Origin: Glandiceps talaboti | Lineage: Eukaryota; Hemichordata; Enteropneusta; Spengelidae | Length of the DNA stretch: 64,000 nucleotides | Assembly (NCBI RefSeq): GCF_964340395.1 | Contig: NC_135558.1 | Location: 2,909,501 to 2,973,500, forward strand | Reading direction: 5' to 3' | In this document: positions 21,365 to 51,803 of the stretch, one piece after another | Position numbering within the stretch: the first letter of the stretch is position 1 | How the letters are laid out: every line of letters starts with the position of its first letter | The notes under the pieces: model-generated | Seen by the model: the letters and a program-made list of their open reading frames with translations, nothing else | Told to the model about the DNA's origin: nothing | Databases searched by the model: none | Translations under genes and position numbers: made by a program

Positions 21365-22081
21365 TTACTAATTCCAAGACTCAAACCCTAAAAGAAATTG
21401 AATTGAACTAAAGAATTATTATCTAATATAGCTGTGTCATTGTTTTTATATTTCTGTGTGACTGTTTCTTTCTACATTTTCATACAGGAAACCATTTTTT
21501 CATTTTAAACATAAAATATATTTCAAATTCTATATCCTATAGATGTTGGTTACAATGGGCTTATAGATGAAAGAGGATTTGTCAACAATGTCTTGAACAG
21601 ATATTTTAATATATATTTTCCAAGAGCCGTCAGAGTTGCTGAAAATCTTCGTCTTCTTGGAGGAAGGGAATCACTAGTCTACACTACCCATCCCTGGTTA
21701 GTCAGTCTGTATGTAGACTGCCCTCAACAGATGGTTCTGGCAGGAATAAAACTTAGAGTAAGTGCATGAGTTAGTTTGTGTGTAGACTGCCCTCAGCGAC
21801 TGAATCTTGCAGGAATACAACTTCAAGTAAATTAGTCATTATTATCTTAAGGGGGGGGGGGGGGTGTTGCAGGAATTGGTTAGGGCTAACTTTGTATGGC
21901 TGAGAAATCGTATCTTAAAAACTAACCTTCTCAGACACAATTGGTGCTCTGATGTTGGAATATAACTGTTTCAGATATAATGTTTGTATTGTATATTTGT
22001 TTTGACTCATTGCAGAAGTGAGTACATTTTTAAGTGTACTTAACAAATTACATGTATTCAGGCATAATAGTGATGTAGCCC

Positions 22082-22112
<31 letters not shown>

Positions 22113-25100
22113 ACACACGTTTCCTCAAATTCCAGTTGTACATATGAGAAACCGGACTGACAGACCAAGTGGGTTAATTGCAGTATCAATGATGCAGGTT
22201 TTATAAGACAGACATTTAATTATTACAACTATATGGTTTCAATTCTGACTTACTTTTTGTACAGTGTCCTACAAAGGAAGAAGTAGAAAACTTTGAACAG
22301 GCTGTATTGAGAGGTGATGTCACTTGGCATGCAGGTCCTATGAACTTACAAACAGATAATATTGATGACTCTTTATTTAATTATGCATTATCAATCAGTG
22401 AAGATTTAGACAAGAAATATGGTATCCAACGCAAACATAGAGGATTCAGTCAAAGAGATGTCCCTGGTATGTATTCCCTCAAATACTAATATTACAAAAT
22501 AGTAATCAATCACTTTAAGAGGTGAAAAAACGATGGACAAAAAGTACAAAAGGCATGTGTCAACAGTTTATTATACATTTGTTTATCAATTCATCCATTT
22601 ATCCATACATACATCCTTCCATTCATCCAAACCTTCATCGCTTCATTCCTTCCTTCCTTCATTTATTCATTCATCCATCCCTCCCTTCCTCCCTCCCCTC
22701 TCTCCCTCCCTCCCCTACCTCATTCATTCATTCATTCATTCATTCATTCATTCATTCATTCATTCATTCATATATTTATTTATGTATTTATTGACAGGTA
22801 TAACCCAGGCAGTAATTCCAACATTAGTGCAACATGGCATAGATGCAGTTTCTGTTGGTGTGAATACAATGAGCAGTCCTCCTGCTGTCCCTAACCCATT
22901 TGTATGGAAATATGGGAATGACTCCGTGTTAGCCATGTGGCATCCAGGTACGTAGTAAGAAATATACATTATAATATTATGTGAGAGAAAATGTTAAGGT
23001 TTTAATGGCTAGCAACAATAAAGGTGATATTTAGTGGCTTCTCCAGTGTATTCAAGTTTTTATTAAATTGATATATTTACAATCTTTGATATGATCATTT
23101 TCTAATAACTGATTGTATTACTACTACAGGTGGTTATCCTGATAGTCCTGGAATAGGGCCGAGATTTCCAGGTGGATTATCCCGGAAAGACTGTGTAATA
23201 GTGGATGGGTTAGATCATGTCCTGTGCTTTGCTTTTCGTTCTGATAACAGAGGACCACCAGAAGATGCTGTGGTGAGATGTCATTATCGTTAAATTCATA
23301 TAGCATTGCTTTAGAGGATTATATATTTTTTATTGCAGTAGATTTCAAATGAAAATCTCAGTTCAGTTGTGCCAAAAGTAGTCTCCTTCACTTGAAAAAT
23401 AGTCTGTAAATGAATTAAATTTTAGATGACAGTTACAAAATGTAGGAAATTTCAAACAATGGAAAATGTTAGGATATGTCTGGTACTCTTTTTCGACCAC
23501 TTCCTGTAATACTGGTTTTAGATTATTTTGAAGTGCTGGACAGTATTAAATGGAAATGATTTCATTGTAAAATAAAGTAGAATACATTATGAGTAAAACT
23601 AAATTTCACTTTACGAATAAATAGTGGTTAATAAATATTTAATGCACCAATGTAATATAACTACAGGAAGTCTGTACATTGATTTTGTTTTCAGGAAGTG
23701 AGTCGATATTACACTATTCTTGATGCTGAATATCCTGGAGCCACAATTCGTGGATCTACCTTTGAAGACTATATCTCACATTTACTGCAATTCAAAGACA
23801 AACTACCAGTTATCAAGAATGAGATTGGAGACACCTGGATACAAGGCATTATGTCAGACCCCAAGAAAATGGCACAGTATAGAACTATTAGTAGAGCACG
23901 CAGTGAATGCTTGGAATCAGGTAAGTTATAGTGAGTTACTGAATTATATACAAAATGGCAGAGTATAGAACTATTAGTAGAGCACGCAGTGAATGCTTGG
24001 AATCAGGTAAGTTATAGTGAGTTACTGAATTATATACAAAATGGCACAGTATAGAACTATTAGTAGAGCACGCAGTGAATGCTTGGAATCAGGTAAGGTA
24101 TAGTGAGTTACTGAATTATATACAAAATGGCAGAGTATAGAACTATTAGTAGAGCACGCAGTGAATGCTTGGAATCAGGTAAGGTATAGTGAGTTACTGA
24201 ATTATGTACAAAATGGCACAGTATAGAACTATTAGTAGAACACGCAGCGAATTCTTAGATCAGGTAATTTATTGTTTGTTTGTTTCATTTACTCCACCAC
24301 CACCATCAAATAATTTTTAAGATTTTAAGTCAGAAGATTCAGCGAAGCATGAATAATTAACAGTTCAAGCATGTAATATGTACTTCCTGGTGGCTTTACA
24401 TTTCTTGTATTTTTCAGGTCAATGTCAAAATTCTGATCCTAGGATGTCAAGGTTTAGTAGATATTTAGTGAAAATAGCAGAACATACCTATGGACTTAAT
24501 GGTGTTGATGATAGCAGACATTGGTCTAATGAAGATTTTGAAAGAGTTAGGAAAGGTAAAGGTATTATTATATCATTGCATCTCAGTATTAGAAGTAGAC
24601 ATTTAGAGTTGACAGAATGTTTGACATCATTGGTCACTGTCAGCCATTATTCAATCTGAGTTGATGCTTTTTCTGTCATGAAATGTACACAATAGCAATG
24701 CCTTGCAGACTAACAAGAAAGCTTGGTTGGTCAATCAAGTGATTTTTTCTGTCATGAAATACATTAAATGAGTCCAATATCATCAATGTCATCATCAACA
24801 TGTACCCTATAATTGCATACATCATCAACGTGTACCCTATCATTGCATACATCATCAACATGTACCCTATCATTGCATACATCATCAACATGTACCCTAT
24901 AATTGCATACATCATCAACATGTACCCTATAATTGCATACATCATCAACATGTACCCTATAATTGCATACATCATCAACATGTACCCTATAATTGCATAC
25001 ATCATCAACATGTACCCTATAATTGCATACATCATCAACATGTACCCTATGATTGCATACATCATCAACATGTACCCTATAATTACATACATCATCAACA

Positions 25101-28100
25101 TGTACCCTATAATTACATACATCATCAACATGTACCCTATAATTGCATACATCATCAACATGTACCCTGTAATTGCATACATCATCAACATGTACCCTAT
25201 AATTGCATACATCATCAACATGTACCCTATAATTACATACATCATCAACATGTACCCTATAATTGCATACATCATCAACATGTACCCTATAATTGCATAC
25301 ATCATCAACATGTACCCTGTAATTGCATACATCATCAACATGTACCCTATAATTGCATACATCATCAACATGTACCCTATAATTGCATACATCATCAACA
25401 TGTACCCTGTAATTACATACATCATCAACATGTACCCTATAATTGCATACATCATCAACATGTACCCTGTAATTACATACATCATCAACATGTACCCTAT
25501 AATTGCATACATCATCAACATGTACCCTATAATTGCATACATCATCAACACGTACCCTATAATTGCATACATCATCAACATGTACCCCATAATTGCATAC
25601 ATCATCAACATGTACCCCATAATTGCATACATCATCAACATGTACCCTATAATTGCATACATCATCAACATGTACCCTATAATTGCATACATCATCAACA
25701 TGTACCCTATAATTGCATACATCTGCAATATGTAACCAATAAATAAATAAATCAACATTTTTATTTGTAACAAACATTTCAGAGAAGACATTCCAGTTAT
25801 CAGAACTATCATGGAAAGAACAAAGAGATTTCCTACAACTAGGAATAGATGAATTGAAGGGTCATCCTTTATCAACAAAATTAGAGGAAAAGTTGAAAGA
25901 CCTGGAACCAAGTATTCCAGACACTTCTGGTAAGTTGTATGAGTTATTAGAATTAGCCATCATGATATACCGTAAGGTGTAGTTGATGACTTCAGGTTGC
26001 AATTTTTGCAACTTTATCAAACTGGTATAATTTTACACAAAGGGCGTTATGAATGTAAAAATCAGTCTGCTGTACACTCTTAAGATTAATAAAGATTTGT
26101 AACATGATAATAAATTTCTTTCTTTTGAGATTAAACCAGTCAAAGTTGTTTCTGCCTGAAGTACATTTCTGTTGATTACTGTTCAATCAATCAATCAATC
26201 AGCAAAGTTTATATAGCGCCAAAATCCAAAACATTGTTTTGCTCTATGACGCTCAATGGCTAAACCACACTGTATGCTTTGGAGAATAAGTGTGTTTTCA
26301 GTTTTCTTTTGAAAGTTTCCAAGTTTGGAGATTCTCTGATGTCGAGTGGTAGTACGTTCCATAGTTTAGGCGCAGCATATGAAAATGCACGGCCACCATA
26401 TGTGATGGTTTTGTAGGTTGTAGATGTTAAAAGTTTCTTGGTGGATGAACGGAGTGTACGAGTTGGAATATAGGGCTGGAGCAGATCACTGATGTACGCA
26501 GGAGTCTGGTTGTGAATGGCCTTGAAAGTTAACAGCAAAATTTTGTAGTCAATCCTGAGACGAACTGGTAACCAATGGAGATGGATGAGAACTGGGGTGA
26601 TCGGTGCAAATTTCCTGGTGCGTGTGATTATTCTTGCTGCAGTATTTTGAGCTCGTTGTAACAGGCCTATTGTGTTGTCTGGGAGTCCATAGAGAAGTGA
26701 ATTACAATAGTCAAGTTTGGCTGTCAAAGTTGCATGTATTAATGTTTGGCATGTTTCATTAGTGAGGTAGCGTCGTATGGATCCAATCCGGCGGAGGTGG
26801 CTGTAGATTGATTTGCAAGTGTATGTAATGTGCTGACTGAACATGTGATTGTCGTCAAAGATCATGCCGATATTGCGAGCAGATGAAACGGGTATGATGG
26901 AAGAAGAACCAATGTTGACACTGTTGAGTGGAGCAGGTGCACAGTTGAATTTGGAGCGGATCAAAAGGACTTCTGTTTTGTTGTCATTGAGCTGGAGTTT
27001 ATTGTGAGTCATCCATTCCTTGATGTCATGGATACATGTTTCGACTGAGGACAAGGCTACGGGAGAGTCACGATGAGAAAATGAAAGATAAAGTTCATGG
27101 TCATCTGCATACTGGTGAAAGTTAAGATCATGCTTGTGAATTAAATTTCCTAATGGAGCAATGTAGATAGTGAACAAAAGAGGGCCTAGGACAGAGCCCT
27201 GTGGCACTCCAAAACTGAGTTCTGATTGTTCACTGACGATATCGTTGATTTTGACAGATTGGTCCCTTTGCATTAAGTATGAGTTGAACCATTTGAGTAC
27301 AACATCATTGATACCAAGATGAGAGAGTCTCTGAAGTAATATCTTGTGATCAATAGTATCGAATGCAGCGGAGAGATTGAGGAGAATGAGTAGAACATAA
27401 TTGTTATCAACTTTGATATGATTTCAGGTGATAGTCTTCAAAGAAACTCTATGGCTCTTTATAAACATGTACTCAGCCATTTTGGGGATTTCCTCCGAGG
27501 GTAAAACCACTTGTGATTTGTTTTGACTTATAAATATATGCGCTGAAGTTATTCAGTGGAGATAAGCCCTGCAAGCACACTTTAAGTACATTATGCAAAT
27601 TAAATTGAGTTGTATTAATAAAGACAATTTTGTGGGCTGCCATGGCAATGTGAATTCACATACAAAACATGAACACAGTAGCAATTGTACAGAGGTACGT
27701 GGCATATATTTATAATAATCATTTGTTGTGAAAGCTTAAGGTGTCAAAAACAGTTGTACTGAATACGACAGGCTGACTGGAAGACATATTTATGGAGTAG
27801 TAGTACGTGTCTAAATGTCCATGGCCCCTTGCACTGTTTGCCAAATTAAAGTGCTGTCTGACATATCCTAAATTGGCACTCTGCTAAATTTTTCATGCAC
27901 CAAAATAAATACAACTGCTGTAGTCAATTTTTATATCTGTAGGTTACACCATGGTCAGCATACCGACACCAGAAAGGACCTGTAATAATGGAATAACCAT
28001 ACAGATTGGTAGGAATGGACAGATTACCAAATTAATAGACCCAAGTTCTAAGGTAGGAATTAATTTTAGTATGATTTTGGACAGATGGACAATTGCAAAT

Positions 28101-30822
28101 AGACCCAGATAATTATATTAAACAGTTTCTACATTACACAAAAAAACCCTAATTTTTATGCACAACATTATGTTTAAGGAAAGTCTGTGAGCTTTATTCA
28201 GCTGTATGATCATGTCCACAACATTAATTTAAGGTTTTCTTTTGATTTCAGATTGACTGGGCAAATAACTGTAGACTAATTGGTTTTATTACAAACTGAC
28301 TGGGCAGCCACTGTACATCAAATAACTGTAGACTTGGTTTTATTTCAGATTGACTGGGTAATGTGCACATCAAATAACTGTGGACTTGGTTTTATTACAG
28401 ATTGACTGGGCGATGTGCACATCAAATAACTGTGGACTTGATTTTATTACAGATTGACTGGGCAGCATGTACATCCAGTTACTGTGGACTTGGTTTAATG
28501 ATGTATAATAGTTACAATGAAACAGACGTTACTAATTTCAACCGTCAATATGACTACATTGGTTCAGCTGAGTTCCACAAACCAGGATTACAAGCATTTG
28601 CCAATCCTGATAGCAAGCAGTGGATTACTAAGACTATAGAAATATGGCAAAAACAAGGTGTGTATATATGTCATCAACTGGTCAAAGCCTATGGGTACCC
28701 CATCCCATTTGTGATCATTCCACTCAAAGTCACATAAAGTCACACAGTGTAATGGTTATTGACAATAATACACACAGACAGATGGACACTAGCTAACACA
28801 GTGCTCAGGTATGTAAGGTTACCTAACACATTAAACTGAGACCATGAACTGAGAGTCTCAGTTTGCAAAAATAGCCATCTGAGACCAGTCTCAGAAAGCA
28901 AAAAATAACCATGTGACACCAGTCTCAGAAGGCAAAAAATAACCATGTGACACCAGTCTCAGAAGGCAAAAAATAACCATGTGACACCAGTCTCAGAAGG
29001 CAAAAAATAACCATGTGACACCAGTCTCAGAATGCCAGACAAACCTGTCTAGCTGAGACTAATCTCAGTTTGCAAAAAATAGCCATCTGAGATCAGTCTC
29101 AGTTTGCCAGACAAACCTGTCTAGCTGAGAGTAGTCTCAGTTTGCAAAAAATCGTGATCTGAGACTACCCCATCACATATGGCAAAAACATTTATTATTT
29201 TAGGTACCCTTACATACCACCAGTACTGTAAGAAATAACTACATGAAAAAATTCACACACATAACAAATACAATATGCAATATATGATGATTAGCAAACC
29301 TCCAAAGCTGTTAACAATTAATGCATCACTGGTGATCAGTGATTTGTGAAAAATCTTATTTGTTGGTTTTAAAATTTCCATCATACATATGTTTGTAGAG
29401 ATAACATTTACAAGATGTTGGATTCAAGCATTTTTTCATGGTACTGTTCTGACATTCCAGTAATTGCCAACAGACTTGACAGTGTATATCATGTGTAATC
29501 TTTCAACTAGATATCTTCCAATTCTAAAATCTCCCTACTTTGTTTTTATTTTTTATCAGATTCCTCCTGTAGTTTCCTATCTAAGATAGCATTCACTGAT
29601 ACTGAAACTTGGGAGAAATATGGAGCTCCTCAGATATTATGGATCCAAACAGATGTCAATAATAAAAATAAACAAGTTGGTAAGTTTGTCATTTAGCTGG
29701 TTTGTAGTCTATGAGTGGTTCACCAAACCTTTAAAATTCTAAAGTTGGATAGGTTTAGAACTCCTTATAGATTTAGAGCCTCTTATAGATATAAATACGT
29801 AATATCTATAGAATCCGTTTTGTGTACCTCTTAAAAATATGATTCACACACCACTGGATGGGCATGGCAGTTCAGTATTTCCCAGAATTCATTCTGATAC
29901 TATGACATCATGTAATTTATTACAGGGGTGGATATGGCAATTCAGTATTTCCCAGAATGCATTATGATATTGGGACATCATGTAATTTATTACAGGGGTC
30001 GATATGACAGTTCAGTATTTCCCAGAATGCATTATGATATTATGACATCATGTATTTTATTACAGGGGTGGATATGACAGTTCAGTATTTCCCAGAATTC
30101 ATTCTGATATTACGACATCATGTAATTTATTACAGGGGTGGATGTAACAGTTCAGTATTTCCCAGAATTCATTCTGATATTATGACATCATTGTGATTTA
30201 TTACAGGGGTGGATATGACAGTTCAGTATTTCCCAGAATTCATTCTGATATTATGACATCATTGTAATTTATTACAGGGGTGGATATCACAGTTCAGTAT
30301 TTCAATAAGACGTCTACAAGAATCCCAGAGTCGTTGATGTTTAATTTCTTCCCTCCTTCCATGCCTGGTTACCAATGGCAACTGAATAAAATGGGTCGTC
30401 TTGTTGATCCCATGAATGTAGTCCTCAATGGTAGTCAAATGGTACATGGTAAGTGATTGCAGTTTCAAAGCATGTTGAAATATAAACGTTTAAACTTTTT
30501 TGCACATTTTTTATTCTTTTGCTTTGTCTTTTATCATATTTCTGATTTCCTCTCTCCAGGTATTCAGGATGGTATACAGTACACCAAACCTGGTTTCCAT
30601 GGTATCCAAATTACATCTCCAGATGTTCCTGTTGTTTCCATAGTAACCAAAGATCTTCCTGCTACACCATACACTGTACCTTTGAAACCATTATCAGCTC
30701 AACCAATAGGAATGGCTTATAATTTTGTCAACAATGTCTGGAATACTAATTATATATTCTGGTATCCATATATGGACGGTGATGAGAATTTTAAAGCTAG
30801 ATTTAGAATTAATTTACTATGA
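19276..30822 (+). CDS. Secreted DUF5054 (glycoside hydrolase 38-like) protein
   Basis: Fourteen exons (19276-19608, 21167-21296, 21543-21757, 22265-22466, 22798-22947, 23130-23272, 23695-23920, 24418-24555, 25783-25929, 27943-28052, 28453-28657, 29560-29679, 30278-30448, 30560-30822) join in frame to 850 aa. A signal peptide covers about residues 1-24. Residues 28-140 form an unrecognised N-terminal region with several Asn-X-Ser/Thr sites. VHVVYMNHLDVGYNG (146-160) carries the His-X-Asp pattern (H153, D155) that GH38-type barrels use for zinc. DUF5054 hallmarks follow: WHAGPMNLQTD (247-257), HRGFSQRDVPG, WHPGGYP, EIGDTWIQGIMSDPKK (434-449), EHTYGL (488-493), and NNVWNTNYIFWYP near the C-terminus. 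The reaction is unknown; a glycosidase-like role is an inference from the fold. Exons 3, 7, 11 and 13 have duplicated splice junctions, and intron 9 holds an antisense LINE. The family is my recognition from memory; the exon chain is firm because every phase agrees. Confidence 0.85.
20085..20345. repeat. Inverted pair of the AAAC/GTTT dispersed element
   Basis: TTAGTTTGGTTTATGAAAAC then (AAAC)n and ATCAACAATAGAGTAATCAC...AGTTTTCCTATATGC run forward. (GTTT)n then TTTTCGTAAATATAACAAAC runs inverted at about 20265-20330. The forward part matches the repeat at 8818-9070. Two copies face each other about 100 bases apart in DUF5054 intron 1 and could form a hairpin in the transcript. Confidence 0.65.
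21713..21836 (+). repeat. Duplicated exon 3 donor junction (DUF5054 gene)
   Basis: GTAGACTGCCCTCA...GCAGGAATAAAACTTAGA at the end of exon 3 is followed 69 bases later by a diverged copy, GTAGACTGCCCTCA...GCAGGAATACAACTTCAA, again followed by GTAAAT. The copy lies wholly in intron 3. Reading on past the true donor meets TGA within four codons, so the copy cannot extend the protein. Confidence 0.85.
22081..22790. repeat. Simple repeats in DUF5054 introns 3 and 4
   Basis: A C run followed by (AC)n at 22081-22117 lies in intron 3. Intron 4 has CATC, CTTC, CCCT and (CATT)n stretches at about 22590-22790 that reach to within a few bases of the exon 5 acceptor at 22797. Confidence 0.85.
23866..24262 (+). 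repeat. 86-bp array born from exon 7 donor junction (DUF5054)
   Basis: The last 50-odd bases of exon 7 (ATGGCACAGTATAGAACTAT, then GAATGCTTGGAATCAG) plus GTAAGTTATAGTGAGTTACT and the next intronic bases repeat with an exact 86-base period (23871, 23957, 24043, 24129, 24215), the last copy being truncated. Four copies lie in intron 7, of which three keep AG|GTAAG and the last has AG|GTAAT. The copies are nearly identical, so the expansion looks recent. Use of a downstream donor would add 86 bases and read TAG directly after the first donor. Confidence 0.93.
24796..25731. repeat. 30-bp satellite, about 31 copies, DUF5054 intron 8
   Basis: The unit CATCATCAACATGTACCC plus TATAATTGCATA repeats about 31 times with sparse single-base variants. 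Because 30 is a multiple of three, several frames on both strands stay open for more than 300 codons and encode repeated decapeptides. They have no splice or start context and are not genes. Intron 8 spans 24556-25782, so the array makes up three quarters of it. Confidence 0.95.
26183..27420 (-). mobile_element. 5'-truncated LINE, reverse transcriptase C-terminal half
   Basis: An antisense insert in DUF5054 intron 9. On the minus strand an open frame of about 386 codons runs from near 27418 to 26260 and covers RT motif A (LLNLSAAFDTIDH), motif B (GVPQGSVLGPLLF), motif C (YADDHELYL) and the downstream thumb (GLLQRAQNTAARI, LHWLPVRLRIDYKI). The 3' tail is GGCGCTATATAAACTTTG followed by TGAT repeats. 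This pattern fits the CR1/L2/Crack group of non-LTR elements. Endonuclease and ORF1 are missing, as in ordinary 5' truncation. The usual LLDLSAAFD of motif A reads LLNLSAAFD. The open frame suggests a fairly young copy. A target-site duplication was not found. Confidence 0.92.
28252..28495 (+). repeat. 52-bp array born from exon 11 acceptor junction (DUF5054)
   Basis: The sequence TTATTACAG|ATTGACTGGGC...TGTGGACTTGG occurs at 28252, about 28296, 28349, 28401 and 28453. The last is the true exon 11 start. Four copies therefore precede it in intron 10, three with an intact AG and one with AA instead (ACAAACTGAC). Copies still resemble the coding bases for IDWAxCTSxxCGLG. Use of an upstream acceptor shifts frame by one base per unit and soon reaches a stop. 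Confidence 0.92.
28835..29165. repeat. Tandem and shuffled repeats, DUF5054 intron 11
   Basis: A 36-bp unit (CCAGTCTCAGAAGGCAAAAA with TAACCATGTGACA) occurs about four times, flanked by related longer units with CTCAGTTTGCAAAAAATAGC and CCAGACAAACCTGTCTAGCTG. The region is a local mosaic, not a transposon. Confidence 0.85.
29865..30277 (+). repeat. 70-bp array born from exon 13 acceptor junction (DUF5054)
   Basis: TTTATTACAG|GGGTGGATAT then CAGTTCAGTATTTC repeats with acceptors ending at 29925, 29995, 30065, 30135, 30206 and 30277. The last opens exon 13 (GVDITVQYFNKT). The five upstream copies keep the polypyrimidine tract, AG and the first exon bases, then continue with CCCAGAATTCATTCTGAT instead of the exon. 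Spacing is 70 or 71 bases, so upstream acceptors would not keep the frame. Confidence 0.93.
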
Positions 30823-35552: not shown

Positions 35553-35868
35553 TAGACTCTCTCACAGTCCTCGAAGCTTCGCATAAATAGCTAAAACTTG
35601 GGTTGTTTTGTATGTATCTACTGCATAATTGTACTCATAGGCTAGTATCCCAGTATCCCTAGCCCTGTACTGTGCGCCCTTAATCGATCACATAGGGCTA
35701 ACATTTTGTTGATGTGTTAGCCCTATGTGATCGATGAGGGCGCGCAGTACAGGGCTAGGGATACTGGGATACTAGTATACATGCAAGTACAATTATGAAG
35801 TAGATACATACAAAACAACCCAAGTTTTAGCTATTTATGCGAAGCTTCGAGGACTGTGAGAGAGTCTA
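35553..35868. mobile_element. Long-TIR palindromic MITE B, copy 2 (perfect 9-bp TSD)
   Basis: Starts TAGACTCTCTCACAGTCCTC and ends GAGGACTGTGAGAGAGTCTA, a perfect inverse. The arms run about 150 bases almost to the centre, where TTTTGTTGATG forms the loop. It is flanked by GTGTTTTGT at 35544-35552 and 35869-35877, a perfect 9-bp duplication. The outer arm matches copy 1 at 17406-17650, while the inner parts differ in length. It is non-autonomous and Mutator-like by its duplication length and long termini. Confidence 0.92.
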
Positions 35869-36003: not shown

Positions 36004-38056
36004 CTATTCTTTCTCTTGTTCATCAATATATCCTTTCTCCTGATTCTCCTCTGTTGGTTCATCTCTTTCTTGAAGTTCAGTTTCCGGTGTTGTGTCACTT
36101 TCTGTATCAGATTCTTGGTGATGACGAGGCGGTATTTTGTTTTGGCGCTGCACTAATTCAGGTTCACCTCCATAGATGGAGTGTAGGTATGTCCACATAT
36201 CCTCTGAGATCTGACCACAGTCTCCATCTATGACAACAACAAACAATCAGACATATGTAAGAACAAACAAACAAACAGATATATGTAAGAACAGACAGTC
36301 AGTCAGACATGTATTAGTATTACAAATCAAGCCTACCAACACAGGGTAAGTTAAAACCCAAAATCTGAATCTCACTTGCTGGCAATAGTACTATCTTATC
36401 AGTAGGATTAGACAGAATCAATATTTTGTTAAAGGCTGTTCTTCTCATCCAAATATTAATCCTAATCTGACATAGCCAGCTGCAGGTATTTACCAGGGTT
36501 CCCTGCCAAGTTACAGTGTAAGGTATGAAAGTGTATGCATGACCACGTATTTCCCAGGGTTCCCTGCCAATTTACAGTGGAAGGTATGAAAGTGTATGCA
36601 TGGCCAGGTATCACTATCTGCCAGGGTTCCTTACCAAAGTTATAGTGCAAGGTATGAAAGTGTATGCATGGAAAGGTATCTACCAGGTTTCCCTACCAAG
36701 TTACAGTGCAAGGTATGGAAAAGTATGCATATTTTACCTGGCGAACCCCTTTGTAACTAGTGTTATCAAATCTTAGGAAGACCGTTGTAATATTGATACT
36801 TACCATTTTTACGATACCATTGTCCTCCTCTGTTGACAGCTATATCGGTGTTATCAATGGGACCAGGTGGTTCTGTCAAATAAATATATACATGTCTGTT
36901 ACTAGGTGTATGTGTCTCTTACAATGTATGCTTGTCTGTTACTATGTGTACATGTATGTTACAATTTCGACAGTCTTACAATGTAGACATATCTGTTACA
37001 ATGTAGACATGTCTGTTACAATGTACACATGTCTGTTACAATGTATACATGTCTGTTACAATGTAGACATATCTGTTACAATGTATACATGTCTGTTAAT
37101 ATGTAGACATGTCTGTTGCAATGTATGCATACATGTCTGTTACAATGTAGACATGTCTGTTACAATGTAGACATGTCTGTTACAATGTAGACATGTCTGT
37201 TACAATGTATACATGTCTGTTACAATGTAGACATATCTGTTACAATGTATACATGTCTGTTAATATGTAGACATGTCTGTTGCAATGTATGCATACATGT
37301 CTGTTACAATGTAGACATGTCTGTTACAATGTAGACATGTCTGTTACAATGTATACATGTCTGTTAATATGTAGACATGTCTGTTGCAATGTATACATAC
37401 ATGTCTGTTACAATGTAGAAATGTCTGTTACAATGTATACATGTCTGTACTATATACACATCTGTTGCAATGTATATAACTTACAATTGGCAAGTTGAGA
37501 ACATTTAATTCGTGTGTACAAGCTATACAAAAGTTTGTCTTTCTAATATCATTACATGTTGTGTATTTATTTCCTTATTACAAGTTAGCATAACTTACCA
37601 CGTTGCTTGGCTTTGACAAATGCCTCCCATTCTTTAAACCATGACATACTTAGAAAATAAATGACATTGGTGTCTTCTTCATGCTGGAAGATGTTGTTAA
37701 GCTATGGAGAGAAATGACAAGGTGTTATAGTATAGCATTGGTAATGCACACACACACATATGTACACATAGACAAACACACATGCAGACAGATATACATA
37801 TACACACCACACGTACGTATACAGACAGCTATGCAGACAGATATGCATACACACATATATACACACTCACCACATGTACATATACATACACACACATATG
37901 TACACATAGACAAACACACATGCAGACAGACATACATACGCACCACACATGAGTATACAGACACACATGCAGATACATATACACACACATATATACACAC
38001 TCCCCACATGTACATTACATACACATGTACAAGCTCAAGCACTCATACTTCAACAC

Positions 38057-39698: not shown

Positions 39699-42600
39699 AA
39701 ATAAAATCATTATATTTATCACCATACATCAAGCATTCTGACTGAGTAGTCACAGAGGGGTATGAAATAAAATAAAATAAACAATCCCCTTAATTTCTGT
39801 CATCTAACAATGTGTACTTCAGTTTACTGTAGAGGACCAATTATGTGTACTACAGAATACGATCCCATGTTGCTTCAAATTTTTTATATAAATATGCAAT
39901 CAATAAGTCAGTTTTTAGAACTTTGTGTTTACATACCAGTAATATTGTACATGAAAAACTCAATTTTTATCTCTTATTTCTATTTGTACTGTTTTTAATA
40001 TCAAACTGCAAATGTGGTGAGAATTTTTTTTTTAATATCTGGTCACTAAGGACATAATTCTGATGAATACATCTACTCACTTATTGTAGAGATATTCCCA
40101 AACTGGTTGTGGTAAAGAAATGACTAAATCATCCACATAGCTAGCTTTACTTGGTGGTACACCTAAATGGAATAAAATATAGTATATTACACAAAGGCCT
40201 TAAAGTATCGGTAGTAGTACAAAGGCCTTGTAGTATCGGTAGTAGTATATATAGTATATCAGGGAAGAGTCATAGTCAAAAATGCAATAAGGAACTTTTA
40301 AAAACAAGGGAAAATACAGTTTTGCATTTGTTGGATGTGCATTCACAAAAGCAATTGTATTTAGTATTTTGGGCAAATGACATTTTGTAGAGCCTCGGTA
40401 CTTCATTTGCATACCTGGTACATGTTTGTTGTACAACATTTTCTTTTACTAACACTGACTTTTGAACATTGATGATTCATTCTCAGTATCTTGCATAATA
40501 ACAACTTACAAGAAATCATAAACAAAATACAAAATTTAATATAAATCTTACCTCCATGTTTACAAAGGAAGTCGTTATTTGTAATTGGACCTGGTTCTGA
40601 AAAAGTGTTGAATTTGTTCAACCACTGTCTTGACACAAAGAACTGAAGTAAACTTGGCTGAAACAAAGAAAATACAAAATAGGTAGTGTTACTTGAATGG
40701 TGATTAATGAAGACCTCATACTGTTAATCAATATTTAATAGACTATGTCTAGATATGGAAGCCAATACTAGCAATACTAAAGACTGTATGGGATTATGAG
40801 ACGAGACTATCTTTAGAAATGGAGCCAACACTAGCAATACATACAGTGCACTCTTGGATATGCCAAACATTTCTGCCACTTATTATCACTTTAAATATCA
40901 AAATTATCATGCCACATTTGACATATTTTGATTAAAGTTAAATGTGTGAGTAAAAGATCATATTATTGTTATGCTTTAACAGAACAGATCACCAGGCTTA
41001 CCTCCTCTGTGTTCTGCATGCCTACCACTTTCTGCCTTTCTTTCAGAGCTTCAGGGGAATTCTTTCTGAAATTAAAACAAAACAAAACAGAGATATTAAT
41101 TTAGAGTGGATAATATGCTGACAAATATTAACTTAAAGATATTCTTTAAACTCCAGTAATTTATATACCATCAAACTTACACCTGTCAACTTACCAATAG
41201 ACATAGACCTTGTCATTGGTTACCATAGTCATGGACTTCAGAGATTTACATATCATTACAGTTACACCTGTCAACCTACCTATAGAACAGGACATAGGCC
41301 TCAGCATTGGATACTGTTGAGTCATGGACTTCAGTGACATACATATCATCAAACTCGTACCATTCTCCACCTATAAAGTTCTGACAGTAAGCTGTGTAGT
41401 GACCACCTGTACAAACAGACCACAGATTAGTATTATATATGGCATTGACTCAAGATAGTCAAATGGTTAGAGTGACTGACTCACAATTTGTAACCATAAC
41501 TTGGCCAATGAGATGACATGTTATTTCAAGCAATACATTACAGGAAACCTCAATGTACGAGATGATAGGGTTTATCCAATGAGATGACAGGATGGATTAA
41601 CCAATGAAATAATAAGGCTTATCAACCAATCAGATGACATACATGATGGATTAACCAATGAGATGACAAATAGTTTCCACCGATGAAAGGTTGTGTACTT
41701 ACCACCAGCAGTTCCATGGTGACAGATAACACTGACTAAATCATAGGTAGTGCACTTGGACCCACTCTCTAAAAATACATCAAAACATGTACACAGTTAG
41801 ACAATGTGGATTAAAGTGCAAATAAATATAGCTGAGCTCATGACATCATCTTTTATTACCAAAAGCTGTTTAAAATGTTTTAAACATAATCTTCTTAGCG
41901 TAAGTATATAAATATATAAATACTATTCTTGTGGTGTTGTTGTTGTTCGATTCAATATTTTGTACATGATTATCCTGATTTTTTCCATTGGAGGATTTGC
42001 AAAATCAAGTATATAAAACTATTTTTTCTTGACATCCCAGAGAAAATGCATCATCAAAACTTGTGTTCTTTTGACCTATCAGTAATATTTCTGTCAGTCT
42101 GCAGTTACAAAAAATCTTTATATAAACCATAACACCAAAGTAAAGCGTTTTCTGTATGTACCATACGTGTTTATAGCATCCATATCAAGTATAAAAGTAC
42201 ACTGTTTCATTTACTAATTCACCACATTAGAAAGGCCACATGCTAGGCCTGTAAATAAACCAATTGAAACAGTATACTTTTATACTTCATATGAATGCAA
42301 TAAAGGGGGGTAGCACATAGAGAAAGTGCTTTACTTCAGCGTTACTTGTTGTAATTTCAGTCTTTGAAGTGTACGTATTTCCTGACGGGATACAGTTTCA
42401 GTATAATGTAAAAACACAGATTAAATTCAGAAAACTTACCTGGTGAAAGGAATGGTTTCATATCCAATCCTTCCATTGGGAATGACACAAAACTACTAAT
42501 TTTCGAGGAATACATCATTTCATGCCGGAATCTCTTCAGATGGATACATAGTATCTCAGGTAACTCCATGACTTGGGACATTTTGACGCCATTACGTAAC

Positions 42601-45600
42601 CTGGATGGAAAATTACCACAACTTATTAATCATATTTCAACTCATAACTTCAACAATTTAATTGCTCATCTCATTTCAAATTCAACAGAATCACTCAAAT
42701 TTTTAAAACTATTTTTTTTACACTACATTTTGTCAAATCATCAACATTTCTAAAATTACATGTCAAACAAAGGAAACACATGATATAGAACAGTGTTCAT
42801 CCAGAGTAGATAACACATACTAGTATGAGGTTTATGCTGCAGAATCCCATTCTATTCATATCCAAAACCTAACTCTACAACTCATTAGTATGAATACAAA
42901 ATGTGTATGTATGGACTAGGGAGGGGGGGGGGCAGGGGGAAGGGGTCTGACACTGATCACTGAGAGGTGATGTTGATAGAAAACTAGGCACTAACACATG
43001 TATACATGGATTATTACTAGTTTAAACAGATCAATTTTGCATGGGAAAAATTGTCATGTCTTTGAACAATGAAACTAGAACACAATAAATCATGAAATGA
43101 CTTACTTATTACACTTCTAGGGCTACATATTAGTGTTCATACTTTGTTTAATAAGCTTACATACCATGACATATTACCCTGGCAGTTGATATCAAGCCTT
43201 TGGTTTTCTAAGATAGACACAAACTAAACTATTGTTGCAACATGTTCATACAACAGTGATATAAGCTATTGACTGAATGTTGGTTTAATTACAGTCTCAG
43301 TAGGGAGGTGTCTCTGAAAACTAGTTTATTTAGAGTTCCATGAATTTGCAATGCTGTTTTGGGACTTCCAATGTTTACACTACGTTGATCACAATGGCAC
43401 AACAGAGGAACTGCTATCACCCACTTTTGTAAGCTTCCACATTGAAGAACAATAGATTTAGTTTGTGTCTATCTTATTCTTAGTAAATGTGAAGGCTGGA
43501 ATACCAGTGTTGTAATAATATCTATTTTATATAGGGTTTGGAAGGTGGAAAACAATAAATTATGAAGTAAACTTACTTTTTACATTTCTCACAGCTGTAC
43601 ATATTGTCTCCTTTCAAATCATCCGCTGCAAAGAATGCTGCCAGACAGTCTTCTAATGTAACATGTGGACCCCATATCCATCTAATCAAATAAACATCAA
43701 ATATTACTGGATCAAAGTCTCTTAATCTCCTTTCTTCATATTCCATTTTGATATGCATATTTTTGAAATAAAAATTACCATCTTACAGTCTTGATTCACC
43801 ATATGTCGAAAGAAGTAATATCTGGTATTGTTACCAGCTATGTATATTCAAGCATAACATAATTTGGTCTTATAATCTCAAAAGTTTCATCGTGGTCACT
43901 GATTGTGACCTTTGACACCAACACTGCTGAAAAATATAACAACTTTGTGTTCAGAATGGAAATCTTCTTTTCTAGGTATATAGGTAAATACAAGGCTATT
44001 TTATATACTCGGGTAGAATCTAAAATCAGACTGTCGTCGTCCATGAAATGCATTGAGTGCATGTTGATGTCTAAAGTGGTTGTTAAGAGTCAATATTATG
44101 GTAATTCCTCCTAGAGTTTATCAAGTCATCGTTCAAATGACTGAATACTAAAACCGTAGACTGTGGCAGACTGTTCCAAGTATTCTGTACAACACTTACC
44201 CTTTAAACCAGTCAAACATCCATGAAAACCAACCCTGTGTGTTATATGCATCTGTACAACTGCCAACCTTCATTGGTGTATTCTGTACAGCATGTATACG
44301 TGCTAAATCATCTTTGCCTGTAAAAGTTTTTTAAAAAAACATCAAAGTATAACATTATAAGTAAGAAACAGACCTTTCAGATTTAATATATAGATAGATT
44401 ATTCTCATTGACACAAAGGATAAAGAAAACTTTATTTCTATCAAAGTTAATTTTTTTTCCAAACACAAAGTTGAAAATATTATTTATACCTGAAATGTTT
44501 GACAACACAATTCAGTCTTCATTATTCAACAGATTGACCCACAATTCGGAGTTCATGACCTTACTAACATGTGAGCATAATAAGGGGTCAAATGTCAAAG
44601 GTACTTGATTGTTATAGCAATATTTCACCATACAGAAGTTGTTCCAGGATGTTGCCTTTCTCCAAACAGATATACTAACCGTGGCACATTTATCAACATA
44701 TGTTACATTGTGGCAATCTTAAAATAAACAGCAAGATTGCCACAATGTAACATATGTTGATAAATGTGTTAGTATATCTGTCTGGTGATGCTATTCAAAA
44801 ACAAATACTACAGGTTGCTATATACAATATTTTCAGGATAGCTCATTTTAAGTTTAACTACAGAATATCATTTCCTTCCATCTGGTAGACATTTTTGATG
44901 AATGATTTCCTTATTTCATCTGCTGTGCAGCTTTGAAACAATGCCTTTTATAGGTAGCTATGTATTCTTACCTGGTATAGGCAGTGAAAGATAGCTGTGT
45001 ATTCTTACCTGGTATAGGCAGTGAAAGATAAGTATGTATTCTTACCTGGTATGGGCAGTGAAAGATCTTGAAAAGTTTCTTTGGTACTTGATAACTGAAA
45101 GGAATAACACATGACTTATTTGAATGATTCCTAAAATGATGGTGCAATGATGCAAGAAGGTCTGAAGTACCTAACTTTAGACTACTAAGTTTCTATGTTA
45201 TTCAGTCCTCAGTTACTTTTTTACATTAACATATTAGACAGATCAGAGGGTGGGAGGGGGTTGAGAGTGGGGGAGAGGCTCAGACTGGGGTTGAATACTT
45301 AACTGGTAGAAGTACATGCTAATACAATACAACAATCCTCTACCTATAATCCCCAAGTCTCCACATCAACTCAGTCCAATGGTTTCTACATTACTTTTTA
45401 AATATTTTTTTGCCAACTTGATATCTTACAGAAAGTTTGAGAAGACAGACATTTACAAGAAAAAACTGTGGAAGACACCTAGTGATTAGACACAGAGTTA
45501 TTTGTACTCACTGTATCACATGTCAGACATTGCACTGAACTAAGTATCTTTCCATCAAACACATCAGATATAATGCTTCTATATGTGATCGGCTTTTTCT

Positions 45601-46812
45601 TCTTCCGGTTTCCTATAATTGAGATCAAAAGACAAATTGAAAATATCAACTCTCTATGAAAGATGTAGAACAATATCTATGAATCGGTATATCTTAAAAT
45701 ATACTTTATTACACATTTTATTTTCATTTTTACATTATAAATAATAACATCTCACTTGGTTATTTTATGTCCATACATGACTAAAATGTTAGTCCAAGGA
45801 TGAAGCATATTATGCTATATTTAAGTTACAAAGGATACAAAATTTATCCAGAAAAGTTTGAATTTTACAAAATGGATCAAAATATCAAGTTATATGATTG
45901 ATAAATATGACAATGGTGGGTGGGTGGGTGGGTGGATGGATAGATGGGTGGGTAGGTAGGTGGGTGATGGATGGATGGATGGATGGATAGATGGGTGGAT
46001 AGGTAGGTAGGTAGGTAGGTGGGTGATGGATGGATGGATGGATAGATGGGTGGATAGGTACCGGTAGGTAGGTAGGTGGGTGATGGATGTGTGATGGAAT
46101 TGATATGTGTTTTATATAAAGGACTAACAGACATACACAATTAAACACTGATAAACTAACCTTGTTCCATTCTGTTCACAATGCCATCCCTTGCCGGACT
46201 TATACTGTTTTTTTCATCCATAGTTTTCACAGATTCTGTAGATTTGAGTGGTTTCTTCACATCACTGGCCTCAGTTACATTCTTCATGTCACAACTACAT
46301 TTCTCACACAGAACTCGCTCCCCTGATCCCCCTGGCAACGCACCATCACATTCCACAGCATCCTTCACTTCTGATTTACTTTTTTTGCCTTTACTTTTCT
46401 TGTTGTTTTTCTTAGCTGGGCTGCTAGCTTTGGGACATGCTCTGTCATTGATACAATGTTCACATATGTAAATATCAGATGGATTGATGACATCATGGAC
46501 ACCACTGAGGTCATGTGATCTTGCATCATCATCTGATAGGGTGGCTGAATCACGTGACCTTTGCCTTCTATGACTTTGAGGTGGTACATGTATTTGTGAG
46601 TCATCATCATCCTTTTCACTGTCTTTCAAGAAAACTGGTTCCTTCAGCTCCTCATGCATTCTATCCATTAAACATCTCAAGAATTCTTGCGTATCCTGCA
46701 AACAGCAAATTATTGATTATTTTCTCAAGCAAAGATTCCTGTAAACTTTTTGGGGGCTGAACAAAATTTAGCTAATTAATATACACATACGTTTGCTAAA
46801 TGTGAGACAGAC

Positions 46813-46993: not shown

Positions 46994-49900
46994 CTTTTAG
47001 CCAACAGGAGTAAAAAAAAATGTACTTCACAAGAAAAGAAATGACTAACTAGACACAGTAAGTTGAGGAAAGACAAATGAAGGCAAGTGAAATGTTAGTA
47101 GTCACTGTATACAGTAACCTACCTGTTGTGCAAATCCTCTAAACATTGGGTAGACAAGTTTCATACCATGAACCAGAGTTGAAGGTACCACATAGCTTGG
47201 TCTGAGAAAAGAATGTTACATTTTACATTAAGTTAAATCTTTGAACTCAATATTAATGATCTTCACATTGTATATAAAATCTGTCTAGTTGATGTAATAA
47301 ATTATTGGCAAAAATAAATTGTATGCAAACATTGTTTTGCTGACCTTGTTATTAATACTGGTAATAGGTTTTATTCATTCTGAAATTTGTTGACTGGTCG
47401 CCACTGATGAGCACTCAAGTGCCTCAGTTTTAGAGCAGGGAGAAATGGGAGTATCCAGGGTAAATCTTTGTTGTTTGGTAGGTCAAACTAAGCATTACCC
47501 TTCTTACATACAGCCCTGGTCATTTTTTTATAATCAAACCAATCCTGAAGAGGTAAGAGGCAAATGAGCTAACTGCTTCATCACCAACAACCCTTTAATA
47601 TCAAACTATAGAACAACCTACCAATTCTATTTAACACTGTCTCAATTCACATTTACATTGTCAACTTACCTTCTACTATCCCACATTTCCATTGTCAACT
47701 TACCTTCTACTATCCCACATTTCCATTGTCAACTTACCTTCTACTATCCCACATTTCCATTGTCAACTTACCTTCTACTATCCCACATTTCCATTGTCAA
47801 CTTACCTTCTACTATCCCACATTTCCATTGTCAACTTATCTTCTACTATCCCACATTTCCATTGTCAACTTACCTTCTACTATCCCACATTTCCATTGTC
47901 AACTTACCTTCTACTATCCCACATTTCCATTGTCAACTTACCTTCTACTATCCCACGTTTCCATTGTCAACTTACCTTCTACTATCCCAATTTCCATTGT
48001 CAACTTACCGTCTTCTATCCCACATTTCCATTGTCAACTTACCTTCTACTATCCCACATTTCCATTGTCAACTTACCTTCTACTATCCCACATTTCCATT
48101 GTCAACTTACCTTCTACTATCCCAATTTCCATTGTCAACTTACCGTCTTCTATCCCACATTTCCATTGTCAACTTACCTTCTACTATCCCACATTTCCAT
48201 TGTCAACTTATCTTCTACTATCCCACATTTCCATTGTCAACTTACCTTCTACTATCCCACATTTCCATTGTCAACTTACCGTCTTCTATCCCACATTTCC
48301 ATTGTCAACTTACCTTCTACTATCCCAATTTCCATTGTCAACTTACCGTCTTCTATCCCACATTTCCATTGTCAACTTACCTTCTACTATCCCACATTTC
48401 CATTGTCAACTTACCTTCTACTATCCCACATTTCCATTGTCAACTTACCTTCTACTATCCCACGTTTCCATTGTCAACTTACCTTCTACTATCCCAATTT
48501 CCATTGTCAACTTACCGTCTTCTATCCCACATTTCCATTGTCAACTTACCTTCTACTATCCCACATTTCCATTGTCAACTTACCTTCTACTATCCCACAT
48601 TTCCATTGTCAACTTACCGTCTTCTATCCCACATTTCCATTGTCAACTTACCGTCTACTATCCCACATTTCCATTGTCAACTTACCTTCTACTATCCCAC
48701 ATTTCCATTGTCAACTTACCGTCTTCTATCCCACATTTCCATTGTCAACTTACCTTCTACTATCCCACATTTCCATTGTCAACTTACCTTCTACTATCCC
48801 ACATTTCCATTGTCAACTTACCTTCTACTATCCCACATTTCCATTGTCAACTTACCTTCTACTATCCCACATTTCCATTGTCAACTTACCTTCTACTATC
48901 CCACATTTCCATTGTCAACTTACCTTCTACTATCCCACATTTCCATTGTCAACTTACCTTCTTCTATCCCACATTTCCATTGTCAACTTACCGTCTTCTA
49001 TCCCACATTTCCATCGTCAACTTATCTTCTACTATCCCACGTTTCCATTGTCAACTTATCTTCTACTATCCCACATTTCCATTGTCAACTTACCTTCTAC
49101 TATCCCAATTCCCATTGTCAACTTACCTTCTACTATCCCACATTTCCATTGTCAACTTACCTTCTACTATCCCACGTTTCCATTGTCAACTTACCTTCTA
49201 CTATCCCACATTTCCATTGTCAACTTATCTTCTACTATCCCACGTTTCCATTGTCAACTTATCTTCTACTATCCCACATTTCCATTGTCAACTTACCTTC
49301 TACTATCCCACATTTCCATTGTCAACTTACCTTCTACTATCCCACATTTCCATTGTCAACTTACCTTCTACTATCCCACATTTCCATTGTCAACTTACCT
49401 TCTACTATCCCACATTTCCATTGTCAACTTACCTTCTACTATCCCACATTTCCATTGTCAACTTACCTTCTACTATCCCACATTTCCATTGTCAACTTAT
49501 CTTCTACTATCCCACATTTCCATTGTCAACTTACCTTCTACTATCCCACATTTCCATTGTCAACTTACCTTCTACTATCCCACATTTCCATTGTCAACTT
49601 ATCTTCTACTATCCCACATTTCCATTGTCAACTTACCGTCTTCTATCCCACATTTCCATTGTCAACTTACCGTCTTCTATCCCACATTTCCATTGTCAAC
49701 TTATCTTCTACTATCCCACATTTCCATTGTCAACTTACCGTCTTCTATCCCACATTTCCATTGTCAACTTATCTTCTACTATCCCACATTTCCATTGTCA
49801 ACTTACCTTCTACTATCCCACATTTCCATTGTCAACTTATCTTCTACTATCCCACATTTCCATTGTCAACTTACCGTCTTCTATCCCACATTTCCATTGT

Positions 49901-51803
49901 CAACTTATCTTCTACTATCCCACATTTCCATTGTCAACTTACCTTCTACTATCCCACATTTCCATTGTCAACTTATCTTCTACTATCCCACATTTCCATT
50001 GTCAACTTATCTTCTACTATCCCAATTCCCATTGTCAACTTACCTTCTACTATCCCACATTTCCATTGTCAACTTACCGTCTTCTATCCCACATTTCCAT
50101 CGTCAACTTATCTTCTACTATCCCACATTTCCATCGTCAACTTATCTTCTACTATCCCACATTTCCATTGTCAACTTATCTTCTACTATCCCACATTTCC
50201 ATTGTCAACTTACCTTCTACTATCCCAATTCCCATTGTCAACTTACCTTCTTCTATCCCACATTTCCATTGTCAACTTCTGATAACTTTTACAGACTGCT
50301 GGTTTGGAGTCCGTCTTGACAAAACCACCACAGTCCAGAAAGAAATGACACAAAGGAGGACTGCAAAATACAATGTTAAAATAAACTATTATGATATGCT
50401 CTTATCTTATGTATTTGTCCTATTTGTAATATTCTTAAGGAGGTCTGAGTACTATAAATTTACTGTCACTATGTTGTCAAAAAACTTTTACTTTTACCAA
50501 TGTTCAGCCATTAAGTTCAAAGGTCGTCAGGTATGCAGATGTTGGTGAAATGCTGTTTGTACATTGACAAACATGATATGCCAAGTCACCTTCACTATAT
50601 ATCTATCCCAAGTTACAACCATCATGTTAAATCTATCTTACATGCATGACTTCACAGTTCACCTGATGAAAAAAGTCTTTGTAAATCAAGTAAATTTCTG
50701 ATCAGAAGCAAAATATTTCTTCCCACTGATACAAATTCTTGAAACTTTAAGTGCATGAGTACCAGGAAGCAAGGTGAGAGGTATGTCTCTGTACATCCAT
50801 TGATGCTCACTGCAATCATGGGATATGTTGCTTGAACATGTCTAGTTTTTGAAAGCATGCGACCCTGAGATTCCAGTGTGTGCACATGAATCAGATGCCT
50901 TGCTAATGCAATACAGTAATAATGCAATGACTAGATATACATACCAGTTGGAGAGTGCTTGCAGGGCTGCATTAAGGTAACATGTATTTCCCATATTCTT
51001 CAATCCAGTAAGTCCTACAAACACAATACAGAGCAAATGAGGACAATAATAATAATAATAATAATAATCTTTATCTATACTGGATAGTTCTTTAAGCATA
51101 TAAACACTTGTCTCCCAAGAAGTTCTTGGGAGACAAGTGTTTATATGATTAAAGAACTATCCAGTGTCCAGTGAGGGCCATCCCTCATGGGTTCATGTTA
51201 ATGCAGGAGGAAACCGGAGTACCCAAGGAAAACCTGCATTGTTTGGTAGAGTCAAACTGAACGACACTCTTCTTACTTACAGCGTGGTAAATTTAATCGA
51301 ATCCTGAATGGGGTTCGAACCCCGACCGCAGTGGTAAGAGGCAAGTTGTTTAACCACTCGGCCACCGACAACCCTCATTGAATTCAAAACATCTGGTTAT
51401 CTAACAAATCACAGTGAACAACTCTATACATTACCAGTGTATATCAATACCAATCGATCATTTGTCACTAGACTATGTATCAGTAATGAATTATTGCAGA
51501 CATCAAACTATGAGTAAACATGACAAAGGCAAGTATATGTACAACTGTGGACTCACCTCGTGGTTTAATGTTGTCATTGTCATCTAAATCAGAATCATCA
51601 TCATTATCCACTGTTGATGGAGGAGGAAGAGGTGGCGGCAGTGATCTATACCTGATAGCGAAATAATAGCATATATGTCATGTTTTATCTTGAAATTCTA
51701 AATTGTCAGTTTTGGTTAAAAGATTTGTTTTATCAACTATAACAATACAATGCAATGTCCAAGTGTCTGTGTGTCTGTCTGTGCATGTTTGTCTGTCCAT
51801 CCA

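Follow-up and report, generated by a model that had tools for sequence, protein, structure and literature searches.

How is the correct 5' splice site chosen when a gene carries dozens of near-identical ones in a row? The question is raised by a 64-kb stretch of DNA (the window, analysed here in full) from the acorn worm Glandiceps talaboti, an enteropneust hemichordate, in which a 34-bp tandem array covers the end of an exon and fills most of the intron behind it. Tandem repeats at exon/intron boundaries have been termed mirages in amphioxus, where the available portion of PMC3087553 describes them for Adh3 and for the globins BflGb6 and BflGb9. Arrays of near-identical splice sites in natural genes are rare test objects; here, 60 GT donors in one gene and arrays of acceptors in its neighbour make the choice rule readable from RNA, the candidate rules among equal sites being use of the site nearest to the exon, of the one transcribed first, or of the one nearest across the intron.

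The host gene lies on the minus strand. Joining its exons by splice sites and reading frame gave a model of 23 coding exons that is identical over 902/902 residues to NCBI P0001, 'ubiquitin carboxyl-terminal hydrolase 20-like [Glandiceps talaboti]', so that the earlier assignment of the array to exon 7 of a USP gene was correct. The Pfam domains UCH, UCH_1, zf-UBP and DUSP were found in a 706-aa part of the model, and a 590-aa query matched 105 PDB sequences, with ubiquitin hydrolases on top; neither PDB (at E 0.001) nor NCBIfam was matched by a 63-aa query, whose UCH match stayed under the Pfam cut-off. The neighbour, on the plus strand, has 14 exons and encodes a DUF5054 domain. NCBI P0123 (511 aa, Glandiceps talaboti) is contained unbroken in our model of this gene, without the first 339 residues of the model (22798-22947). 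Relatives of 849-850 aa from Ptychodera flava appear to carry these N-terminal residues, and the public gene model behind P0123 looks truncated. A possible extra exon at 22136-22197 was dropped, its inclusion breaking the frame. P0001 and P0123 are both placed on a contig of 25,083,287 bases and the P. flava relatives P0002, P0121 and P0122 all on a contig of 40,999,305 bases; conservation of the USP20-like/DUF5054 neighbourhood between the two species fits these placements but is not proven.

As judged by eye, intron 9 of the DUF5054 gene contains a reverse-transcriptase-like open frame of 387 codons (26263-27423, minus strand), apparently a LINE, USP intron 5 contains a tRNA-like stretch with a GGTTCGAACCCC box (51290-51380, minus strand), perhaps a SINE, and a long inverted repeat directly downstream of the USP gene (35554-35867) is perhaps a MITE. 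A search of the 64-kb window against Rfam returned no family at gathering score.

In the USP20-like gene, coding exon 7 (50247..50360, minus strand, 114 nt) is followed by intron 7 (47202..50246, 3,045 nt) and coding exon 8 (47123..47201), whose product begins with PSYVVP and which the protein shows spliced to the first donor. TRF analysis revealed a head-to-tail array of 34-bp units at 47648-50278 on the minus strand, with 77.6 copies and 95% matches. All 46 occurrences of the motif AAGGTAAGT in the window fall within the array, compared with 0.75 on average and 3 at most in 100 shuffles; the array is real, as the sequence-only reading had held, and far above chance. Splitting the minus strand at a fixed point yielded 77 units, unit 1 starting from 50275, in one haplotype whose exact copy number is uncertain; 70 units measure 34 bp and seven 33 bp. 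Unit 1 consists of the last 29 nt of exon 7 itself followed by GTAAG, and the other 76 units are intronic. The array does not start exactly at the end of the exon, as had been stated: by TRF it begins 32 nt inside it, slightly less than one period. On the plus strand, 47648-50278 is devoid of stop codons in all three frames (0/877, 0/876 and 0/876 codons), and the open frames of 904, 978 and 894 codons running over it are an effect of the repeat and not genes.

The units fall into 12 sequence types, the commonest comprising 35/77. Each unit had been described as the last 29 exonic bases plus GTAAG, which is true of unit 1; as exact copies the others fail, T replacing A at donor position -6 in 62/77 units and the exon-copy type recurring in just one of the 76 intronic units (unit 39). 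With the slash marking the cut, the donor stretch reads AAG/GTAAGT in 46, ACG/GTAAGT in 14 and AAG/ATAAGT in 17 of the 77 units. GTAAGT is kept in 60/77 units (78%), 14 of these being ACG/GTAAGT, and 17 units have AT in place of GT; the complete AAG/GTAAGT is found in 46/77 (60%) and not in four fifths. Among the intronic units, 59/76 carry GT (45 as AAG/GT, 14 as ACG/GT) and 17/76 lack it. Seven columns of the 34-bp unit are variable, two of the nine in the donor and five of the 25 elsewhere, revealing no enrichment of variable sites in donor columns.

The order of unit types is irregular, the longest run that recurs at a distance being eight units. Variation of this kind (12 types, seven variable columns, distant recurring runs of up to eight) is that of tandem repeats and supports the mirage reading preferred below. 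It also argues against an array expanded or misjoined during assembly, as does the 25-Mb length of the contig encoding P0001. Tandem arrays are error-prone, and one globin mirage of amphioxus is reported, in the portion of PMC3087553 available, to be apparently aberrant (misassembled) in a draft assembly; we nevertheless regard an artefact as hardly credible here.

Further arrays were found to straddle junctions in both genes. In the USP gene (minus strand), a second donor array at the end of exon 11 (44955..45066; 37 bp x 3, CAG/GTAAGA) reaches 21 of 37 nt into the exon, and the end of exon 16 shows a decayed donor pair (41150..41286), with two copies 85 bp apart that are 81% identical over 52 nt and score 19 of 36; this pair is absent from the TRF rows. 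In the DUF5054 gene (plus strand), donor arrays lie at the end of exon 3 (21700..21830; 69 bp x 1.9, 80% matches, 58 of 69 nt into the exon) and at the end of exon 7 (23866..24272; 86 bp x 4.7, CAG/GTAAGT with weaker copies, 55 of 86 nt into the exon). Acceptor arrays lie at the start of exon 11 (28262..28496; 52 bp x 4.4, 44 of 52 nt into the exon) and of exon 13 (29864..30303; 70 bp x 6.3, 26 of 70 nt into the exon). The exonic overhang is shorter than one period at all six straddling arrays.

Other repeats were noted close to USP junctions. The donor of exon 13 has a weak intronic copy (43075-43577, minus strand) that scores 17 of 36, the best of 100 shuffles scoring 14; by eye, the copy lies near 43100 and may be a mirage that has decayed and been displaced. 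At exon 22, 29 copies of a 20-bp unit (36883-37474) come within 10 bp of the acceptor but do not extend across it.

The authentic donor of intron 7, AAG/GTAAGT at 50241..50249 on the minus strand, is cut between 50247 and 50246 and is the sole in-frame GT donor of the array. P0001 uses this donor, NCBI models being possibly predictions and not read-supported. Translation of the exon with each decoy matching the pattern, at the six arrays and the USP exon 16 pair and leaving copies without GT or AG uncounted, gave a stop codon in 75/75 cases. The decoys tested at donors numbered 45 + 14 for USP exon 7, two for USP exon 11, one for USP exon 16, and one and four for DUF5054 exons 3 and 7, respectively; those at acceptors numbered three for DUF5054 exon 11 and five for exon 13. 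At USP exon 7, 59/59 GT decoys lead to a stop at the same place, since TAA lies directly beyond the first donor. Translation confirmed both earlier claims, namely that the frame is restored by the first donor alone and that TAA follows at once when this donor is read through.

This uniform outcome could be read as regulation by unproductive splicing, in which use of a decoy leads to an immediate stop and nonsense-mediated decay, with the length of the array tuning gene output. Besides the 59/59 stops, the AAG/GTAAGT decoys equal the true site. The stop itself, however, requires no selection, because any extension of exon 7 runs into the TAA behind its donor, and we consider such a role improbable.

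At every site examined, the in-frame splice site is the exon-proximal one, that is, the first donor or the last acceptor. In the acceptor arrays, it is the last of four matching sites at DUF5054 exon 11 and the last of six at exon 13. The problem of choosing the first of dozens of donors, as posed earlier, is real but belongs to a wider one, since the acceptor arrays need their last site. A rule by which the first site transcribed wins fails for the same reason, and a rule by which the shortest intron wins is rejected, as it fails at all arrays. Exon definition, with selection of the site nearest to the exon, would fit every array as far as the productive transcript is concerned. P0123 crosses three of the four DUF5054 arrays unbroken via exon-proximal sites, the site at exon 3 being assigned by frame alone.

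The strength of the decoys counts against so simple a solution. With a matrix built from the same 35 donors of the two genes that it ranks, AAG/GTAAGT outscores 32/35 and ACG/GTAAGT 15/35 of them. When identical 5' splice sites are duplicated in test constructs, the intron-proximal site is often preferred, which is the opposite of what is needed here. If that preference holds, something would have to mark the exon-proximal donor, the simplest candidate being bridging from the exon's own acceptor. According to the available part of PMC5389562, occupancy of several 5' sites by U1 alters their choice and not splicing efficiency, barring a clash of sites, whereas simultaneous occupancy is possible for a pair of alternative 3' sites and inhibits splicing. 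On this view, the DUF5054 acceptor arrays pose the harder puzzle.

Why arrays should include junctions at all was addressed with the intronic TRF arrays of the two main genes that have a period of at least 20 (n = 14), leaving out shorter periods, re-descriptions of microsatellites (e.g., 45917-46089 and 22594-22648) and the row at 47622-47662, whose coordinates run into those of the main array. Of these 14 arrays, six straddle a junction, four at donors (USP exons 7 and 11, DUF5054 exons 3 and 7) and two at acceptors (DUF5054 exons 11 and 13). Random placement within their own introns, allowing an overhang of one period, predicts 3.4 straddling arrays (P = 0.087 for six or more). Together, 26 arrays with a period of at least 20, hand-picked from the TRF output, cover 9,575 bp, so that roughly 15% of the window is minisatellite. 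Because the window is this rich in minisatellites and the excess of six over 3.4 reaches only P = 0.087, chance overlap suffices to explain the inclusion of junctions.

The same excess could speak for a process directed at junctions, such as DNA breaks at donors linked to transcription or U1, which would make junctions hot spots for mirages. It is not borne out by the P value, and acceptors are affected as well. A strong copy nearby (score at least 20 of 36) was found at 5/70 junctions, against 263/1320 random intronic 36-mers (218/1240 without low-complexity ones), a control rate that is inflated because the 36-mers often fall inside long arrays. Weak copies scoring more than 2 above the best of 100 shuffles were present at three more junctions, namely the donors of USP exons 13 and 16 and of DUF5054 exon 3. 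With these inflated controls, the 36-mer copy test gave no sign of a junction hot spot among the 70 junctions of the two genes. A junction-directed origin is, accordingly, quite improbable, somewhat more so than regulation by decoy splicing.

Along the USP exon 7 array, donor decay is uneven. Dead donors (AT) occupy 15/38 units of the exon-near half and 2/38 of the far half (4/76 circular shifts equally extreme), and intact AAG/GTAAGT shows the reverse, with 17/38 and 28/38 (3/76 shifts equally extreme). In units 2-20, AAG/GTAAGT is kept in 4/19 cases, compared with 41/57 beyond; 2/76 shifts are as low, for a 19-unit window that was the best of four tried. Across these four windows, the shifts as low as observed number 14 of 76 (first 8 intronic units), 12 (first 11), 8 (first 15) and 2 (first 19). 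The pattern is only suggestive of selection against exon-near decoys. Pruning near the exon would be expected under exon definition, because only near decoys yield an exon of plausible length. Patchy turnover of a tandem array can, by itself, produce such clusters, and the decay signal is weak. The crowding of dead donors near the exon is not predicted by pure neutrality, but given patchy turnover, the objection carries little weight. The broader proposition that mirages are general in acorn-worm genes, outside lancelets, and that selection prunes their most competitive decoys is one we hold to be unlikely, though worth keeping in view. If it were true, the array would be a unit-by-unit record of the range over which equal splice sites compete.

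The number of donors also invites a role in binding U1, with the array serving as a platform that, for example, shields intron 7 from premature polyadenylation, or sequestering U1 along the intron. The 3,045-nt intron 7 holds 60 GTAAGT together with AATAAA or ATTAAA hexamers at +2647 and +2871. Against this stand the sibling donor arrays, with merely one to four decoys, and the acceptor arrays, which are of another kind. For sequestration, decoy RNA comparable in amount to total U1 would be required, which nascent RNA from a single gene is unlikely to provide. The sequestration suggested in the sequence-only reading received no support in this analysis, and a U1-related function appears very improbable.

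Starting from what was established directly (the array, its gene, the frame effects, and the six arrays that straddle junctions in the two genes, with a placement that chance could account for), we prefer, with a probability of about 0.78, to regard the array as a mirage. On this reading, a minisatellite with a unit that spans the junction by chance grew by slippage or unequal exchange, is tolerated through exon definition and is likely functionless. A short tandem duplication over the end of exon 7 would have placed 29 exonic bases plus GTAAG in intron 7, and slippage or unequal exchange may then have expanded the array to 77 units. The acceptor of exon 7 would pair with the nearest downstream donor, which is the first, and the intronic copies would be spliced out with intron 7. 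Growth of the array would be tolerated because exon definition selects the first donor and the intron removes the other copies. Most likely, the array itself evolved neutrally and is without function.

An amphioxus Adh3 mirage was reportedly described by Canestro et al. in 2002. In the available portion of PMC3087553, amphioxus mirages are stated to hit 5' and 3' boundaries alike, with units of 10-72 bp in Adh3 and 150-160 bp in the globins, and to be unstable in length, two haplotypes of one globin gene having 6 and 3 units; Adh3 together with RT-PCR data suggests that regular splicing is undisturbed. Further amphioxus mirages in PGBD5 (2 to 7 units depending on the assembly) and troponin C are given in the accessible part of PMC3902484. 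The USP exon 7 array resembles these in that it includes the boundary, has a unit of minisatellite size (34 bp, against 10-160 bp) and carries splice signals in many but not all copies. By its type counts, it also has a homogenised interior from which the boundary copy is excluded, 35/77 units being of one type and the exon copy of another. It differs in its host, a hemichordate and not a cephalochordate, and in its size: its 77 units compare with 3 and 6 for one globin gene and 2 to 7 for PGBD5 in the portions of these sources available, Adh3 being outside the comparison. That no case of this size had been described may thus hold for the size, which may be new, but not for the kind, which is known from amphioxus (PMC3087553, PMC3902484, as far as available).

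No hemichordate mirage was found in the open-licence literature, which is weak evidence of absence, and the accessible part of PMC12783039, on intronic minisatellites of an earthworm metallothionein gene, describes no repeat at a splice junction. As far as searched, the Glandiceps array is a very large instance of the amphioxus kind in another phylum. Its occurrence in a hemichordate suggests that mirages are a consequence of minisatellite-rich genomes and not a peculiarity of lancelets. Ordinary intronic minisatellites of the same window have similar unit sizes and identities but, unlike the mirage, no splice junction in the unit. The Rogers model of intron gain across AG/GT, as discussed in the available portion of PMC3087553, likewise starts from a duplicated stretch that contains a splice signal; in that model a new intron arises from the copies, whereas here an intron is made longer.
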